This document shows positions 50,400-58,820 of a DNA stretch of 64,000 nt, piece after piece. The position numbers and the translations under genes were made by a program. Each line of letters opens with the position of its first letter. Position 1 is the first letter of the stretch. The stretch covers positions 62,001 to 126,000 of the forward strand of contig SUXS01000008.1 in NCBI GenBank assembly GCA_015060865.1. The letters run 5' to 3'. Under the pieces are notes generated by a model, which saw only the letters and a program-made list of their open reading frames with translations, searched no databases and had not been told where the DNA came from. This DNA comes from Bacteroidales bacterium (GTDB lineage: Bacteria; Bacteroidota; Bacteroidia; Bacteroidales; Bacteroidaceae).

Positions 50400-50720
50400 A
50401 ATATCCGTAATATCGTGCAAAATTAGTGCAAAATATCGATTTAGCGAAAACAATATAGTTAAACTTGCATTGTTGAGCGTGAGAAAGTCCGAATCAAGTA
50501 GCTAAATGCAAGCTTATCCACAATCTATCAGCGAACAGCCCAGACTTCATCACCAGATACATTCAGTCTCAGGCAAGTGAGAAGCAAGCTTGTCTGGGTT
50601 CTTGCAGCGAGCGAAAACACATTTCCCCTGTATTCGTTTTGCACTTTGACAAGGAATCGTTACCTTTGCGGAATAAGATATTGGTTAATAATCACAATTC
50701 TATGGAAAATAAATATTGAT

Positions 50721-51620
50721 ATGAAAAAGCATTTTTTATTCCTTTTTGCTATACTGCTTCCCCTATTGGTAAGTGCAGAGAAAGTTGAGATTGACGGGAT
50801 TTGGTATAACCTTACAAATGAAAGTAAAACTGCAGAAATCACATCGTCGCCCACGAAATACAGTGGCGATTTGGTTATCCCAGAAACCGTGATGTACGGA
50901 GAGGAAGAATATAATGTGACAAGCATTGGCAACAATGCATTTGCATCTTGCAGTTCGCTTAGTTCCATTATTATTCCACAAGGGGTAACGCGAATTGGCA
51001 ACAACGCGTTCTTCGCGTGTCATTCACTTAGTTCCATCATTATCCCCAAAGGAGTGAAAAGTATAGGGAGCAACGCATTGTACAATTGCCAAACCCTTAC
51101 GACAATTATACTACCCGAGGGATTGGAAAAAATAAGTTCTTCGGCCTTTGCCTTCTGCTCCATGCTCAGAGAAGTCTATTGCTATGCCGAGAACGCACCT
51201 TCAGCTGAGCCAAATGCTTTCGATGGCTCCAATCTCAGAAGTGCCATTTTGCATGTATCAACAAGCTGCATTGATAACTATAAGACAACATCGCCATGGA
51301 ATAAATTCAGTAATTTTGAAGCAGAAGCCAATAAGTCAGTAGGCATACAGGGGACATTTGACCTCAACGGACGCAACATCTCGGGCAGTGGGCTTCCTGT
51401 ACCCACCAATACAACACAAGACGAAGGACGTGTAGTGGTAAACATCACTGTAAATCCCGCAGGAGAAGTGATAGCTACCAGTATCAACAGACGTACCAAC
51501 ACTGTAAGCCCTGAATTGCGTCAAGCAGCTGAAGATGCTGCAAAGCGAGCAAATTTCAATAAAATTGACGGAAAAGATGTTCAATCGGGGACCATTACCT
51601 ATTATTTCAAGCTGCGCTGA
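50721..51620 (+). CDS. Secreted LRR_5 protein fused to a TonB C-terminal-like domain
   Basis: MKKHFLFLFAILLPLLVSAEKVEIDG signal peptide; LRR units FASCSSLSSIIIPQGVTRIGNNAFFACHSLSSIIIPKGVKSIGSNAL; C-term DEGRVVVNITVNPAGEVIATSINRRTNTVSPELRQAAEDAAKRANFNKIDGKDVQSGTITYYFKLR. Confidence 0.75.
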   Translation: MKKHFLFLFAILLPLLVSAEKVEIDGIWYNLTNESKTAEITSSPTKYSGDLVIPETVMYGEEEYNVTSIGNNAFASCSSLSSIIIPQGVTRIGNNAFFACHSLSSIIIPKGVKSIGSNALYNCQTLTTIILPEGLEKISSSAFAFCSMLREVYCYAENAPSAEPNAFDGSNLRSAILHVSTSCIDNYKTTSPWNKFSNFEAEANKSVGIQGTFDLNGRNISGSGLPVPTNTTQDEGRVVVNITVNPAGEVIATSINRRTNTVSPELRQAAEDAAKRANFNKIDGKDVQSGTITYYFKLR

Positions 51621-51710: not shown

Positions 51711-51732
51711 AAGTGTAAATAGCCATAGAAAG

Positions 51733-51769
51733 TGTACAAAAAGTGTAAATCTTTGTGTAAATCTTTTTG
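51733..51769. repeat. Left copy of a 37-bp inverted repeat
   Basis: tgtacaaaaagtgtaaatctttgtgtaaatctttttg; reverse complement matches 58784-58820 at 35/37 positions. Confidence 0.85.
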
Positions 51770-51795
51770 GCTTAGTCTCCGTGATGCTCAGCGGA

Positions 51796-52692
51796 TTAGG
51801 CGGCAGAAAGTGTACATTGTTTCTTCCAGTTGTTCCTTTCCATTTTTGAGGTTTTCACGAACACACCTTGACGCACCTTGCCGATGTAATACTCCTTGCT
51901 CAGCTTGGCCAATTTCTTGGCTACGGCATTCTTCTTGATGCCCATCTCTTCACCTATGCACACGGCTTCGGCGGTGGTGAACTGCTTGGGGAGCATTTGC
52001 AGGAAGGCCAGGGCACTGATGTAGACACGCTTGGGCTCCTCGTACTCCTCACAGCGCAGGCGGTCGTAGATGGTGGAGGTCTGCATCATGCAATAGAAGA
52101 TGTACGCGAGGCCCCACTTCAGGTCGGCCTCTGCGATGGCGAAGCGCTTCTCGGTAAACATTCCTTCTACACATCCCAGCTCCTCATAGCGGCGCAGCAC
52201 GGCAATGATCATCAGCATACGGTAGAGGTTGAGGCGACTGCGCAGGATGGGAGCACGCAGGTCCTTGTCCGGCAGGGCCAAGGCCACGAACGATACCAGC
52301 TGGCGGTAATACTCGTCGATATACTTGCGCTGCTCATCCGTGATAATCAAGCGTGGCAGCTCTTCATCGGCCTTCCCCTCAAACGGACGCAGCTCCTTCC
52401 ATATATCGGTAAGCACACCGCGGTGATGGCCATACACATCGATGAAGGCCTCGGCCGTGGCCTCATCCATCTCGCCACGCACCGTGCTCTTGGCTGGCAG
52501 GTTATGGTAGAGGAAGCGGGTAGAGAGTCCATCCTCAAGATTGGGGATAAACTCACGCACCGACGACATGGTGCCCGTAGCCGCCATGGCCAGTCGGGTG
52601 TGCTCAATGAGGAAATCCTCATCATCAGTCTTGCGCCCTGTATGTAGTTGCTCCTCATTCTGCGCCACCAGCACCTCGTACCAGAAGCTCAA
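51796..52692 (-). pseudogene. 5'-truncated DUF3987-type (mobile-element helicase/primase-associated) protein
   Basis: FWYEVLVAQNEEQLHTGRKTDDEDFLIEHTRLAMAATGTMSSVREFIPNLEDGLSTRFLYHNLP...; no proper start, TAG two codons upstream of a TTG. Confidence 0.65.
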
Positions 52693-52876
52693 CGACTATG
52701 TGGCGCACGGCGAGATGGAGCGCGTGCCTCGCGTCAATGGCTGCTTCCGCCCTACGAAGGGAAACTTCGGGAGGTAGGAGTTATACCCCATAAACAAAAA
52801 AAACAGTAGCAAAACAAAGATTTGCGCAAGTTGGCACATTACGCACTGATTTACACAAGAGTTACGATTGTAATTG

Positions 52877-52918
52877 TTGCGTAAACTTTTGCGTAAGTAT
52901 TGCGCAGCCTTTGCACAT
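52877..52918 (+). promoter_or_regulatory. Helically phased TTGC boxes upstream of the regulator gene
   Basis: TTGCGTAA (52877), TTGCGTAA (52889), TTGCGCAG (52900), TTGCACAT (52911): 11-12 bp spacing. Confidence 0.55.
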
Positions 52919-52940
52919 TGCCGAAAAACGACTATCTTTG
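52910..52940 (+). promoter_or_regulatory. Candidate promoter of the regulator gene
   Basis: TTTG (52910-52913) - 19 bp - TATCTTTG (52933-52940). Confidence 0.55.
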
Positions 52941-52975
52941 CTGTCTAAACTACGATTATACTCACAAAGGCATCT

Positions 52976-54004
52976 ATGAATAGATTCTTCATCATACTCT
53001 CCACGTTGCTGGCACTGTTCTCCTCTTGCTCGGAGAAGCTGCAGGGCGATGCGCCACAAGCAGGCGAAGGATTTGACATTACAGGGGCTTGGGTGCTTAT
53101 TAGTCAAACGCTTCCCAGTGGAAGAGTCGTTGAAACGAATCTCAAAGACTACTCACGCTGTAAGATTTATGGTTCTGACAGTTCTTACTATTGTGTACAG
53201 CTAAAATTCTTTGGAGGTGATGTTTTCGTATCTCCTCACGAAGAAGGACGATTCTCGCTGCACGATACTCTCTATGTAGAAAACGGACGTCCTACGCCTT
53301 TCAGCGTGATTGATGACAGCACCATGACCACTGCTTTCATGGGTATTATTGAGACTTGGCGGCGCTCTACTACCATGACAGAAAGTAGGAAAGAGGAAAT
53401 TCGCAATATATTCCGTTACCACCAAAAGAAGGCTACAGCAGAGGAGCCGCTGCTTGAATACGTGCTTTCGACCGGCGAACGCAAGTTGCAGCACACCATC
53501 AGCATATACCATTACTTGTTTATAGCACTGCTGTCCGTCATACTAGTCATTATCATCTATGCAGTAGAGCTTGCCAAGCGCAAGCGTCGTGCCGAAGCGA
53601 ACCTTGCAGCTATTAAGGAGGAATTGAATCTGCGTCCTGCGGTGATAACCGATGCCATCAAGCAGGTGGAGGACGATTTCTTCCAGTCGGACTACTACAC
53701 TGCGCTGCGCATCCGCATAGCCGAAGGTTCCAATATGACCGATGAGGACTGGCACGAGATGGAGCGTCAGGTGAATGCAATATCGTCGGGCTTCACCCGC
53801 AAGCTGCGTTCGCTCTATGACTTCTCCGACGTGGAGTACCAGGTGTGCCTGCTCATCAAGCTGCGCATACCGCACAAGGACATTGCTGCCATCACCCATC
53901 GTGCTCCCGATAGCGTATCAAGCATACGTAGCCGTCTGCACAAGAAGATCCTTGGCCCTAACGGAGGAGCCAAGGAATGGGATTACTTTATCCTTTCGTT
54001 GTGA
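52976..54004 (+). CDS. Membrane-anchored regulator: lipoprotein-like sensor, TM segment, LuxR-type HTH
   Basis: 342 aa; LFSSCSEKLQ lipobox; TM YLFIALLSVILVIIIYAVELA; C-term YDFSDVEYQVCLLIKLRIPHKDIAAITHRAPDSVSSIRSRLHKKIL resembles an HTH. Confidence 0.7.
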   Translation: MNRFFIILSTLLALFSSCSEKLQGDAPQAGEGFDITGAWVLISQTLPSGRVVETNLKDYSRCKIYGSDSSYYCVQLKFFGGDVFVSPHEEGRFSLHDTLYVENGRPTPFSVIDDSTMTTAFMGIIETWRRSTTMTESRKEEIRNIFRYHQKKATAEEPLLEYVLSTGERKLQHTISIYHYLFIALLSVILVIIIYAVELAKRKRRAEANLAAIKEELNLRPAVITDAIKQVEDDFFQSDYYTALRIRIAEGSNMTDEDWHEMERQVNAISSGFTRKLRSLYDFSDVEYQVCLLIKLRIPHKDIAAITHRAPDSVSSIRSRLHKKILGPNGGAKEWDYFILSL

Positions 54005-54052
54005 CGAGATTGGTTTAACTAAATCCATTGTTTAACAATCCGTTATACTTCC

Positions 54053-54111
54053 TTGCAAGAATCTTGCAAGGAACTTTTGTTCCCCAAAATCAATTGCAAG
54101 CAAAATGCAAG
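54053..54111 (+). promoter_or_regulatory. TTGCAAG box array upstream of the GLPGLI genes
   Basis: TTGCAAG at 54053, 54064, 54094 and ATGCAAG at 54105; 11-bp spacing within each pair. Confidence 0.5.
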
Positions 54112-54179
54112 GATGATTTCTTGCCCCTTTAGCGCAGGTGGGATAACTTTACATTCACAAACTCCCCAAAGCTACGATT

Positions 54180-55067
54180 ATGAATGTAAAGAAACTTATC
54201 TCTTTTGCTCTGATTGCTCTATCTGCAACCTTCACATTTGCCCAGCAGAAGCAAGGCTATGCGCGTGCTCCATTCAAGAAGAATCAAGGCAAGATGTCTG
54301 TCATAGACTCCACGCGCCTCCGTGTATGGTATGCCATGAATGCCGATAGCATAGCCGATATGAACACCTACATCGACTATCAACGTCTGGATGTGGGTGA
54401 CAGCATTTCCAAGTATTACAGTTGGTTTGTATATAACAGTGACTCGTTACTGCGCGAATGGCACAAAGCACACCCCAAGGCACAGTCAGCTCCATCGTGG
54501 CAAGGGCCAGGTGGAAAGGACAAAAGCACATGGATACAATATGAATTCTCCGATTTATATATGCAGAATGGTATGCTTACCGAATACGCCTGCATGCCAG
54601 GGTGGCTACATAAGTACAACTCACAGTATTCCGAGCCTATTCCCCGCCAGTCGTGGATTATATCCTTTGAGATGCAAGAGATATTGGGCTATACTTGCCA
54701 AAAAGCCACGTGTCATTTCCGTGGGCGGGACTATGTGGCATGGTTCGCACCCGATATCCCTGTACGCCAAGGGCCGTGGAAGCTCGGCGGTTTGCCAGGC
54801 CTCATCCTCAAAGCGCACGATGTAGATAGTCTCTATACTTTTGAAGCAGTAAAAATTGAAACTGGCAGGCATCCAATTATTCGCTACGAGTACAAGGAAT
54901 ACAAGGAAGAAAGTCGTGAGAAGGTACAGAAAATGCAACGCTCCTTTGCCGAGAATTGGTACAAGGCGGTTGACTATCATCGGGCAGAGATGCTACCTAA
55001 CGGTGAGATAGAGAAGAAAGAAGCTGTCTCCATCTACACCCCCTACGAACCCCTTGAACTGGAATAA
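54180..55067 (+). CDS. GLPGLI family protein (copy 1)
   Basis: 295 aa; signal peptide; GPWKLGGLPGLILKAHDVDSLYTFEAVKIE. Confidence 0.9.
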   Translation: MNVKKLISFALIALSATFTFAQQKQGYARAPFKKNQGKMSVIDSTRLRVWYAMNADSIADMNTYIDYQRLDVGDSISKYYSWFVYNSDSLLREWHKAHPKAQSAPSWQGPGGKDKSTWIQYEFSDLYMQNGMLTEYACMPGWLHKYNSQYSEPIPRQSWIISFEMQEILGYTCQKATCHFRGRDYVAWFAPDIPVRQGPWKLGGLPGLILKAHDVDSLYTFEAVKIETGRHPIIRYEYKEYKEESREKVQKMQRSFAENWYKAVDYHRAEMLPNGEIEKKEAVSIYTPYEPLELE

Positions 55068-55083
55068 ATAAGAGAATACAATT

Positions 55084-55974
55084 ATGAATGCAAGAAGATT
55101 ATTGGTTACTGCAACGGCTGTATTGGTTGTTGCATCGGTGGTGGCCCAGCAAAAACAAGGCCATGCAAGTGCTCCATTCAAGAAGAATCTCGGTAAAATG
55201 TCCGTCATTGACTCCACCAAACTGCGTGTATGGTATGCCATGAATGCCGACAGCCTTTTGGATATGAATACGTACGTAGACTATCAACGCTTGGATGTTG
55301 GGGATAGTATATCCAGATATTACAGTTGGTTCGTCTTTAATAGTGATTCACTTATAAAAGAATGGAGAAAGCAAAATCCCAAAGCACAATCTGTCCCCTC
55401 TTGGCGAGGACCGGGAGGTAAGAACAAGAATCTCTATATACAATATCAGTATTCCGACCTGTATATCCAGAACGGTCATCTTACAGAATACGCCTGTATG
55501 CCCTCCCGTCTGGAACGCTACAACGGGCGGTATACGGAAGAATATCCCTTGCAGAACTGGAACATCTCCTTCGAGATACAGGAGCTATTGGGCTATACGT
55601 GCCAAAAGGCTACATGTCATTTCCGTGGGCGCAACTATGTGGCATGGTTTGCTCCCGACATTCCTGTGCGCCAAGGACCGTGGAAACTCGGCGGTTTACC
55701 CGGGCTTATCCTCAAAGCGCACGATACCGATAGCCTATACACTTTTGAGGCCGTTAAGGTAGAGACAGGCAAGCACCCGATTATCTGCTATGAATATAAA
55801 GACTATAAGGAGTATCCACGCACAGAGATACAGAAGAACCAGAAACGATTCACCGAGAACTGGCCCAAAAGCGTAGGATGGAGAAAAGGCACTATCATGC
55901 CTGATGGAAGCGTAAAACTGAGCGATGAGATAACTTCCATCCATACCCCCTACGAACCCCTTGAGCTGGAATAA
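55084..55974 (+). CDS. GLPGLI family protein (copy 2)
   Basis: 296 aa; GPWKLGGLPGLILKAHDTDSLYTFEAVKVE; closely similar to copy 1 throughout. Confidence 0.9.
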   Translation: MNARRLLVTATAVLVVASVVAQQKQGHASAPFKKNLGKMSVIDSTKLRVWYAMNADSLLDMNTYVDYQRLDVGDSISRYYSWFVFNSDSLIKEWRKQNPKAQSVPSWRGPGGKNKNLYIQYQYSDLYIQNGHLTEYACMPSRLERYNGRYTEEYPLQNWNISFEIQELLGYTCQKATCHFRGRNYVAWFAPDIPVRQGPWKLGGLPGLILKAHDTDSLYTFEAVKVETGKHPIICYEYKDYKEYPRTEIQKNQKRFTENWPKSVGWRKGTIMPDGSVKLSDEITSIHTPYEPLELE

Positions 55975-55997
55975 CCAACCCATAAAAACAAAGCACG

Positions 55998-58652
55998 ATG
56001 AACACGAAACTTCACCACATACTACTTGTCGCCTTCTTGACGGCGATAGCGCTGGATAGCGTTGCCCAAGACAAAACGGTTATTGACGGCTACGTGAAGG
56101 GAGCCGACGGCAAGGCCGCCGATGCCTACGTCACCGTATCGCCCAAGGGCAAGGGCATCATCCTCGGCTTTGCCGATGTGGATGTGGCGAGCGGCTACTA
56201 CAAGGTGGAGTTCGCCTTCGACACCGACTCCGTGGCGGTGACGGCGGCAGGTATGGCCATCGGACAGAACATAAAGATGGTGCCCAACCGCTCGCAGCGG
56301 CTCGACTTCCTTACCGTGGAACAATCGATAACAATCAAGGAGGTGAGCATTGTGGCCGACAAGATACGGCGGAGCGGCGACACCATCAACTACAACGTGG
56401 CCGCCTACAAGCAGCAGGACGACCGCGTGATTGCCGATGTCATCAAGCGTATGCCCGGCATGGAGGTGAGCGAGAGCGGAGGCATCAAGTACAACGGGCA
56501 GAGCATCTCGAAGTTCTACATCGAGGACATGGACATGCTGGAATCGCGCTACGGACTGGCCACGAAGAACGTCAGCGCACAGGATGTGGCCACCGTGCAG
56601 GTGATGGAGAACCACCAGGCCATCAAGTCGCTGCAGGGGAAGGAGATTACCGACAAGGTGGCCGTCAACCTCAAGCTGCGCCCCGAGGCCAAGGGCACCT
56701 TCTCCGTCAACGCCATGCTGGGTGGCGGTGCGCAGCTGCAGGGTAACGTAGGCAGTAATCCGCTCATGGCTGGCGAGGCCACGGCAATGTACTTCGGCAA
56801 GCGCCGCCAGCACATGACCGTCTACAAGGGTGACAATGCGGGCAACGACGTATCCACCGAGCTGGTAGAGCAGTACACCATGGGAGGCGTGGGGCTCTAC
56901 CCCTTCTGCCCCATGGGCGCGGTGATGCCCTCCAGTGCCGGACTGCCCAAGCGGCGCTACCTCGACAACCGCACCCATGCGATGGGGCTCAACCATCTGG
57001 AGAAGCTCAACAAGGACACCGAGTTCACGCTCAACGCCACCTACCACAACGACGATATACGCCGCGAGGGCTACACGATGAACGACCGCTTCGTGACTGC
57101 CGACACACGCCTCGTGACGGAAGAGACGCTCACATCTGAAACCCACGTACACAACCTCAATGCCCAGGCATACTACCAGTGGAATGCCGACGAGGGATTC
57201 TTCAACAACCGCTTGCAGGTGAAGGGCTCGTGGAACCGCGATGCCGTGACGGGCACGCTCACCTCGAATGCCCTGAGCGATGCGCAGCGCGTGACGCAGC
57301 GGTTCGACCGTCCCGAGTTCTCCATCAAGAACACGGCCAACACCATCCGCAGCATCGGCGACAACAACTTCCGTCTCAACTTCTCCGTGGGCGCTGCCCA
57401 CAGGCCGAGTACCCTCGGCGTGAGCATCGACAGCACCGCCCGCTACACGCAGGACATCACCTCGCAGCACTACGCCGCCACGTTCCACACGGGCTATGGC
57501 ATAGGGCTCGGAAACTTCCGCCTCAACTACGGCATCAACTTCGTGGGCGGCATACACCACGTGGAGAGCGACCTCGACGGCTACACCCCGCTCACGGGCA
57601 GCGCCCTACAGAACGATGTGTGGTACCGCCTCTACGAACTGGTATTGGGGCAGGAGTACACCTACAAGTACGAAGACTTCAAGGCTACCCTTACCCTGCC
57701 GCTCAACCTCAACACGCAGAACCTCGACGACCGCATCCACTCGGGCAACTACCACCACATGCAGTTGCTCGTGGCGCCGTCGTTGGCACTCAGCTACACG
57801 GGCAATGAACTGTCGGGCGGAGCCAGCGTGCGCTACCACCGCAACGTGGGCAACCCCAATGCCATCTATCAAGGAGCCATCATGACCAACTACCGCACCT
57901 TCCAGCGCGACTACGTGGACCGCCTCTTCAATCGCGGCACACTCGCCGCCAATGCCGATGTGCGCTATGCCAACAGCCTCTCGGGTACCTTTGCCAATGC
58001 CGAGTTCGGTTACACCCGCCTCGACGAGAATGTCGTGTACGGCTACCGCTACGACGGGGTCACCTCCATCGTCGAGGGCATAGAGCAGGACACCCATTCC
58101 GACACCTACCGCGCCGGAGCCAGCCTCAGCCAGGGTTTCAACTGGTGGCAGGCCACGATGAGCCTCTTCGCCAACGCCTCGCTCACACAGGACGAGCAGT
58201 ACATCGGCGGCATCATCTACCCCATGGAGTACCGCAGCCTGTCGTTCGGCGGCGCGGGCACCGTCACGCCCATACGCCAGATCAACCTCGTCTTCAGCTC
58301 GGGCTGCGGCATGAGCCAGAGCTACGTGCAGGGCGGTGCGGCTACGGCACGCACCATCACCACCGCCACCCACCGCCTGACGATGAACCTGCACCTGACG
58401 AAGAAGCTCACCCTCTCCGCCTCGGCCGAGGACAGCTACAACAACCTCACCGACGAGAACCGCCACCACTGGTTTGCCGATGCCAAGGTGAAGTACAAGA
58501 TGAAGCGCATCGACCTCGAAGTAGAGGCCAGCAACCTCTTCAACCAGCAAGCCTACACGCAGGTCAACTACAGCAATCTCAACATCTACCGCAACGTGTG
58601 CCAGCTGCGCCCGATGAACGTGGTGGCCAAGGTGCGATTCAAACTGCTGTGA
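55998..58652 (+). CDS. Outer-membrane beta-barrel / TonB-dependent receptor-like protein
   Basis: 884 aa; signal peptide, carboxypeptidase-like repeat, plug-like VIADVIKRMPGMEVSESGGIKYNGQSISKFYIEDMDMLESRYGLATKNVSAQDVATVQVMENHQAIKSL, barrel ending VVAKVRFKLL. Confidence 0.85.
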   Translation: MNTKLHHILLVAFLTAIALDSVAQDKTVIDGYVKGADGKAADAYVTVSPKGKGIILGFADVDVASGYYKVEFAFDTDSVAVTAAGMAIGQNIKMVPNRSQRLDFLTVEQSITIKEVSIVADKIRRSGDTINYNVAAYKQQDDRVIADVIKRMPGMEVSESGGIKYNGQSISKFYIEDMDMLESRYGLATKNVSAQDVATVQVMENHQAIKSLQGKEITDKVAVNLKLRPEAKGTFSVNAMLGGGAQLQGNVGSNPLMAGEATAMYFGKRRQHMTVYKGDNAGNDVSTELVEQYTMGGVGLYPFCPMGAVMPSSAGLPKRRYLDNRTHAMGLNHLEKLNKDTEFTLNATYHNDDIRREGYTMNDRFVTADTRLVTEETLTSETHVHNLNAQAYYQWNADEGFFNNRLQVKGSWNRDAVTGTLTSNALSDAQRVTQRFDRPEFSIKNTANTIRSIGDNNFRLNFSVGAAHRPSTLGVSIDSTARYTQDITSQHYAATFHTGYGIGLGNFRLNYGINFVGGIHHVESDLDGYTPLTGSALQNDVWYRLYELVLGQEYTYKYEDFKATLTLPLNLNTQNLDDRIHSGNYHHMQLLVAPSLALSYTGNELSGGASVRYHRNVGNPNAIYQGAIMTNYRTFQRDYVDRLFNRGTLAANADVRYANSLSGTFANAEFGYTRLDENVVYGYRYDGVTSIVEGIEQDTHSDTYRAGASLSQGFNWWQATMSLFANASLTQDEQYIGGIIYPMEYRSLSFGGAGTVTPIRQINLVFSSGCGMSQSYVQGGAATARTITTATHRLTMNLHLTKKLTLSASAEDSYNNLTDENRHHWFADAKVKYKMKRIDLEVEASNLFNQQAYTQVNYSNLNIYRNVCQLRPMNVVAKVRFKLL

Positions 58653-58783
58653 TGGCGGAGAATACAACAATCTGCAAGCTTCTCTAGAAATAAGCACTAA
58701 CGCGGTATAAAAGCATCGATTGTGCGAAACTGAGGATTTACACTTTATACTCCACAGTCCACTGAGTATCAAAGTAGTTACAA

Positions 58784-58820
58784 CAAAAAGATGTACACAA
58801 ACATTTACACTTTTTGTACA
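58784..58820. repeat. Right copy of the 37-bp inverted repeat
   Basis: caaaaagatgtacacaaacatttacactttttgtaca; also starts an imperfect hairpin with tgtacatgttgtgtacatct (to 58834). Confidence 0.85.

Follow-up and report, generated by a model that had tools for sequence, protein, structure and literature searches.

We identified a four-gene envelope locus in a 64,000-nucleotide stretch of a Bacteroidales genome (hereafter the window; contig SUXS01000008.1 of assembly GCA_015060865.1, positions 62,001 to 126,000), which comes from a gut bacterium of the ruminant type. The locus encodes a membrane-tethered regulator (52976–54004), two GLPGLI proteins of family TIGR01200 (GLP1, 54180–55067; GLP2, 55084–55974), and a TonB-receptor-like outer-membrane barrel of 884 amino acids (55998–58652). 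Our best reading, to which we give about an even chance, is that it constitutes a regulated receiver module (for uptake, binding or immunity) directed at a Cys-rich peptide of the ribosomally synthesized and post-translationally modified (RiPP) type, without the biosynthetic genes. An initial annotation, made from the sequence alone, had recognized four co-directional genes, and this was borne out: all four open reading frames (ORFs) lie at the coordinates it gave and are read from the plus strand, with gaps of only 16 bp between GLP1 and GLP2 and 23 bp between GLP2 and the barrel gene. The recurrent link to radical-SAM RiPP clusters, the predicted lipocalin fold of the sensor, and the putative operator are new. 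Gene content, the pairing of GLPGLI with the barrel, the conservation and spacing of the operator, and the RiPP linkage were computed here.

We propose that the locus works as a two-part envelope module under regulation. The regulator would sit in the inner membrane, where its lipocalin-like pocket would sample a periplasmic ligand, and its cytoplasmic helix-turn-helix (HTH) would bind TGCAA repeats, phased at 11 bp, just ahead of the promoter for GLP1, GLP2 and the barrel, most likely activating it. The barrel would act as a TonB-type outer-membrane receptor, and the GLPGLI proteins as secreted bowl (half-barrel) binding proteins working with it. The most likely cargo would be a peptide natural product that is rich in Cys and carries a GG leader (TIGR04149-type), or something similar. 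Because the window genome has only the receiving side, the module would probably take up, bind or neutralize a peptide made by neighbors. Within this scheme we infer the substrate, the direction of transport, direct binding to the operator, and activation over repression.

Judging from gene neighborhoods, GLPGLI proteins and barrel almost certainly form a unit and would act together. A same-strand GLPGLI gene was present within 1.5 kb of 36 of the 37 distinct barrels of the subfamily across all loci fetched, some of which had been chosen via GLPGLI or RiPP matches; in an unbiased barrel search, each clear barrel match followed up also pairs with GLPGLI. This agrees with the earlier statement that GLPGLI genes often stand beside such barrels. 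In L113, the one exception, two GLPGLI genes lie across the regulator from the barrel, and the number of GLPGLI copies per locus ranged from one to about eight. A lack of co-occurrence in other genomes had been named as a finding that would refute the system. For the GLPGLI-barrel pair, co-occurrence was found; the regulator is facultative, accompanying the pair in four genomes of the same genus and in a distant (second barrel) clade.

The barrel protein appears TonB-receptor-like by sequence. The 884–amino acid ORF and barrel of the initial annotation stand, and its N-terminal domain and plug-like region (the latter approximately residues 108 to 230) are recognized in relatives of the barrel (CarbopepD_reg_2 in 10 of 15 and Plug in 3 of 15, by Pfam), with no domain of the window protein itself reaching the Pfam cut-off. 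A profile of the barrel weakly matches the N-terminal domain of RagA and the barrel end of a ferripyoverdine receptor (E ~ 0.01). The arrangement suggested by these relatives, an N-terminal carboxypeptidase-regulatory-like domain, plug-like region and barrel, would resemble that of SusC/RagA-type TonB-dependent receptors. Unlike these, the window barrel has no SusD/RagB partner, GLPGLI genes stand in the partner position, and the sequence falls below Pfam cut-offs.

The adjacent regulator very probably controls the GLPGLI-barrel operon, and the earlier proposal that it drives these genes is strongly supported by a conserved, phased putative operator directly before them. We compared 58 distinct intergenic regions lying after a regulator gene with 194 other intergenic regions of these loci as controls. 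Half-sites of the form TG(C/T)NA at an exact 11-bp period were found in 56 of the 58 regions and in 13 of the 194 controls; shuffled sequences would be expected to yield them in 0.7 of 58, and periods other than 11 bp showed no comparable excess. Furthermore, in 45 of 58 regions a TAnnTTT(G/A) box followed the end of the half-site pair at a distance of 33 or 34 bp, compared with 6 of 194 controls (Fisher test, P = 2.6 × 10−31, which overstates independence because the loci are related by descent). In the window, the promoter-proximal putative operator is the direct repeat TGCAAGCAAAATGCAA (54095–54110, plus strand), followed after 33 bp by a Bacteroidetes −7 box (TAACTTTA, 54144–54151, plus strand). 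It is the sole positioned match in 64 kb, and exact matches to the repeat occur in the 3.0-Mb genome only at the GLPGLI-barrel promoter. The four loci of the genus that have the regulator (the window, L072, L073 and L074) share an identical operator and promoter before GLPGLI, and the operator is missing from L037, the orthologous operon of a RiPP cluster that has no regulator. The sixth base of the half-site was G in all 13 loci whose recognition helix reads RAP(D/N)SV, and A in all 44 others; the G class is a single clade, and the match is thus supportive, not independent.

A chance neighborhood, in which regulator and operon are merely adjacent, would accommodate the finding that in one genome of the genus (G018) the orthologous barrel occurs without the regulator, but it is very improbable given the operator data and the recurrence of the regulator beside GLPGLI in the second barrel clade. 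A first 11-bp repeat pair, distal to the promoter (TTGCAAGAATCTTGCAAG, 54049–54073, plus strand), forms a stem-loop and may be the terminator of the regulator gene, a distal operator, or both. For the copy next to the promoter, we rejected mere terminators as the source of the period-11 signal: its distance to the −7 box is constant at 33/34 bp, and in the sensor-gene clade the majority of copies are not palindromic. With respect to autoregulation, the same rule found no positioned operator match upstream of 52976. With its defined putative operator, the regulator family supplies a rule by which regulons can be predicted in many Bacteroidales of the rumen and gut.

The regulator begins with a signal sequence containing Cys18, followed by a predicted lipocalin-like periplasmic domain (residues ~34 to 135; 53075–53380), a single hydrophobic helix (residues 181 to 199, mean Kyte-Doolittle hydropathy 2.89; 53516–53572), and a C-terminal HTH region with the recognition-helix segment HRAPDSVSSIRSRL (53792–53950), all on the plus strand. 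In its AlphaFold2 model (pLDDT 86), an all-beta barrel (strands 37 to 130) precedes the transmembrane helix (modeled as residues 166 to 218), and the C-terminal domain is helical and of DNA-binding type. The single transmembrane helix and C-terminal HTH described initially are retained. Its "LuxR-like" label rests on the helix pattern and an HTH-like segment, since the Pfam search gave no GerE/LuxR match. Likewise, the lipoprotein-like N-terminus holds for Cys18 of the window protein, but lipidation is not a trait of the family, because the signal peptides of many members end in A or AQ instead of a lipobox Cys. The only Pfam matches for the sensor were weak ones to Lipocalin_4 in two stand-alone relatives (E = 0.017 and 0.057), and we therefore turned to a fold search. 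Foldseek ranked two structures from Bacteroides highest (5byp and 4qrl, the latter lipocalin-like), followed by vertebrate and tick lipocalins, ToxS and potempin E. A sequence search of the regulator against the PDB returned only a chance ferritin match. No result pointed to the general envelope-state sensing or envelope remodeling that had also been suggested.

A scan of species genomes yielded 291 relatives of the regulator, of which the best 80 loci were kept for family counts. All 80 belong to Bacteroidales, and many come from metagenomes of rumen or gut. Mean identity is much lower in the sensor domain (0.38) than in the HTH (0.57). Directly downstream of the regulator are thioredoxin/TlpA-like genes in 43 of these 80 loci, and in 26 a gene for a stand-alone protein related to the sensor domain; a GLPGLI or barrel gene follows in others. 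The coupling of a membrane-tethered transcription regulator to a periplasmic lipocalin-like sensor recalls the co-component systems VtrA/VtrC and ToxR/ToxS (PMC9214523, PMC4933562). In contrast to these, the window regulator carries sensor and HTH in one protein, in reverse order with the HTH C-terminal, belongs to a different HTH family, and is found in the phylum Bacteroidota; in some relatives a separate sensor-like protein is encoded as well. The fusion of a lipocalin sensor to an HTH would represent a second architecture for lipocalin-based transmembrane regulation, outside the enteric Proteobacteria.

Several relatives have distinctive arrangements. Regulators in L121 to L150 are followed by a secreted, stand-alone lipocalin-like protein of ~165 amino acids, reminiscent of ToxR-ToxS pairs. 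In L038, L076 and L079, a 923–amino acid barrel is flanked by two regulator paralogs. These loci are 85 to 87% identical to the window in DNA from ~300 bp upstream through the signal peptide, with sensor domains sharing only ~42% protein identity, a pattern that suggests sensor diversification by recombination. An M56/BlaR1-type peptidase with TonB_C adjoins regulator and GLPGLI-barrel genes in L047 (8871–10358).

Several Bacteroidetes radical-SAM RiPP clusters (TIGR04148/TIGR04149/TIGR04150) include relatives of the GLPGLI-barrel pair as integral genes. In L037, from the same genus (genome G018), a barrel 92% identical to that of the window lies inside a complete cluster. This comprises a TIGR04148 maturase (519 bits), a TIGR04149-type GG-leader precursor (MRIQRIKLNALSETQLHDKEMNAILGGVSPCECSCYYKDQGG...), GLPGLI, the barrel, a TIGR04150 pseudo-radical-SAM protein, a LanC-like protein, glycosyltransferases and a C39-peptidase ABC transporter. 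Across an order-wide sample of 393 genomes, from which 24 distinct TIGR04148 maturase loci were fetched, barrel and GLPGLI occurred together in four (L155, L159, L160 and L175), against a rough estimate of ~0.5 to 2% per maturase locus expected from the density of GLPGLI loci (binomial P ~ 6 × 10−6 to 1 × 10−3). In the same sample, a GLPGLI gene directly followed 8 of the 39 TIGR04149 precursors above cut-off (once each in G199, G156 and G084, three times in G168, and twice in G020), and L037 provides a ninth such adjacency. On the barrel tree, the RiPP label requires at least four changes, and the pair therefore joined or left RiPP clusters repeatedly. A published survey of Bacteroidales RiPPs described related clusters with no recognized immunity genes and did not mention GLPGLI (PMC10352776). 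On this evidence, we consider a RiPP-type peptide slightly favored as the cargo. In one further locus, L058 (267–7077), two GG precursors are interspersed among some eight arrayed GLPGLI genes, and no maturase lies close by.

Several observations weigh against the receiver-module reading. Besides the shared descent of the operator loci, the distal repeat copy at 54054 overlaps a terminator-like hairpin and could be a terminator, and Foldseek TM-scores were modest, limited for the sensor by the long helix in the query. The window locus differs from the RiPP clusters in having no precursor, maturase or exporter; nowhere in the window genome do TIGR04148 or TIGR04149 score above cut-off, and none of the examined loci places the regulator next to a RiPP precursor. 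RiPP genes are likewise missing from the majority of GLPGLI-barrel loci elsewhere, and the peptide may therefore be one of several cargoes. A precursor peptide hidden in the window was sought by leader pattern and TIGR04149, and none was found. Another contig of the window genome carries a separate RiPP-like cluster with a radical-SAM gene and a C39 transporter but no GLPGLI (L247, 2651–10051 of G000:C10). Its GG precursor, an unrelated one of 122 amino acids and rich in GTG/Cys repeats, matches no NCBIfam model. Given that TIGR04148 and TIGR04149 are missing from the genome and that this cluster has no GLPGLI, the window locus is receiver-like.

What the module does with its cargo can be read in several ways. 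Tentatively, GLPGLI proteins could be dedicated periplasmic partners (carriers or immunity proteins) of GG-leader radical-SAM RiPPs in Bacteroidota, with the window as receiver only. Its lipocalin-type one-component regulator would then sense either the peptide or a lipid that the peptide releases, and induce the receptor and GLPGLI pair to exploit or survive a neighbor's RiPP. We regard as equally tentative an uptake system unrelated to RiPPs, importing a glycopeptide, a lipid or a redox-linked peptide, in which the RiPP linkage reflects recruitment of a general peptide importer. The repeated origin of that linkage on the tree is what a recruited general module should produce, the bowl domain is also fused to N-glycan PNGases, and the regulator family mostly precedes thioredoxin/TlpA-like genes (the 43 loci above); direct precursor-GLPGLI adjacency in at least five genomes, however, is specific and repeated. 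Somewhat less likely is immunity, whereby each GLPGLI protein binds and neutralizes one cognate RiPP bacteriocin within the periplasm, the barrel serves this bacteriocin as receptor or entry port, and the orphan locus is an acquired immunity or decoy island. Precursor-GLPGLI pairs do repeat like toxin-immunity pairs (twice each in L058 and L225), tandem GLPGLI arrays reach ~8 genes, orphan copies occur without biosynthesis, and the surveyed clusters lack known immunity genes. Yet the barrel is kept beside GLPGLI even without peptide production, when loss of the receptor would benefit a cell that is immune or a producer. Export is improbable: the barrel would be the outer-membrane exit channel and GLPGLI a LolA-like periplasmic carrier of the secreted peptide. 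Full clusters do contain C39-peptidase ABC transporters, export has been predicted for TonB-like barrels in graspetide clusters (PMC8939145), and LolA carriers are the closest predicted GLPGLI folds after the bowl domain. But TonB-receptor architecture (carboxypeptidase-regulatory domain and plug) is that of importers, the window contains no peptide that could be exported, and barrel and GLPGLI stand alone in many genomes.

To our knowledge, no function has been assigned to GLPGLI, a curated family of Bacteroidota, and a literature search by name or accession found only incidental mentions. Both window proteins are members well above the cut-off of 50 bits (TIGR01200/PF09697 Porph_ging): GLP1 scores 161.6 bits (model positions 1–228 of 229) and GLP2 152.1 bits (4–228 of 229). 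They are the sole GLPGLI genes of the window genome and are 71% identical, indicating tandem duplication and upholding the tandem pair of the initial annotation. The C-terminus, which is YEPLELE in GLP1, follows the pattern P-(L/I/M/V)-(E/D/K)-x-(E/K) in 73 of 86 distinct GLPGLI proteins. This conserved end lies outside the TIGR01200 model, which stops at residue 256, and is possibly a docking tail. An AlphaFold2 model of GLPGLI (pLDDT 79) had the N-terminal bowl domain of PNGF-II and of 7zgn as its first Foldseek matches (E = 3 × 10−7 to 2 × 10−6), with LolA next (E ~ 0.008). Profile searches gave the same first matches weakly, as did Pfam PNGase_F-II_N. The predicted fold is thus that of the N-terminal bowl-like (NBL) domain of PNGase F-II (4r4x, 7zgn), here without a glycosidase domain, and secondarily LolA-like, which suggests a binding or carrier role. 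In the PNGase, the function of the bowl domain is unknown (PMC9522356). To what was known of the family we add the pairing with a barrel, a dedicated regulator and relatives in RiPP clusters. The latter provide a concrete lead to GLPGLI function, and its role can now be tested on the basis of the recurrent position right after RiPP precursors, the near-obligate pairing with a barrel, and a fold model. In L059 (11401–13561) and L064 (2913–5076), retropepsin-like aspartyl proteases are encoded between GLPGLI genes, and one of them has a PDZ domain.

The cassette is flanked by an inverted repeat, with a left arm at 51729–51818 (plus strand; AAAGTGTACA...AAAGTGTAAATC) and a right arm at 58736–58820 (minus strand). 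The paired arms (51733–51817 and 58736–58820) are 85 nucleotides long and 75% complementary, with iteron-like AAAGTGTACA/AAAGTGTAAATC units, and enclose a DUF3987 ORF together with the whole cassette (51729–58820). Flanking repeats had been taken to suggest mobility. The repeat is real and unique in the window genome to the two cassette flanks, but no recombinase was identified, and mobility gained no further support. In L066, L020, L072 and L073 the barrel also has similar arms at its side, in two cases adjoining a DUF3987 gene, and the window DUF3987 ORF appears truncated relative to L079. Rearrangement of the locus is likely, as far as these sequence comparisons go. Just upstream (50577–51620), and with no link to the system drawn, is a BspA-type LRR_5 protein with a C-terminal TonB_C domain, an unusual domain pairing.

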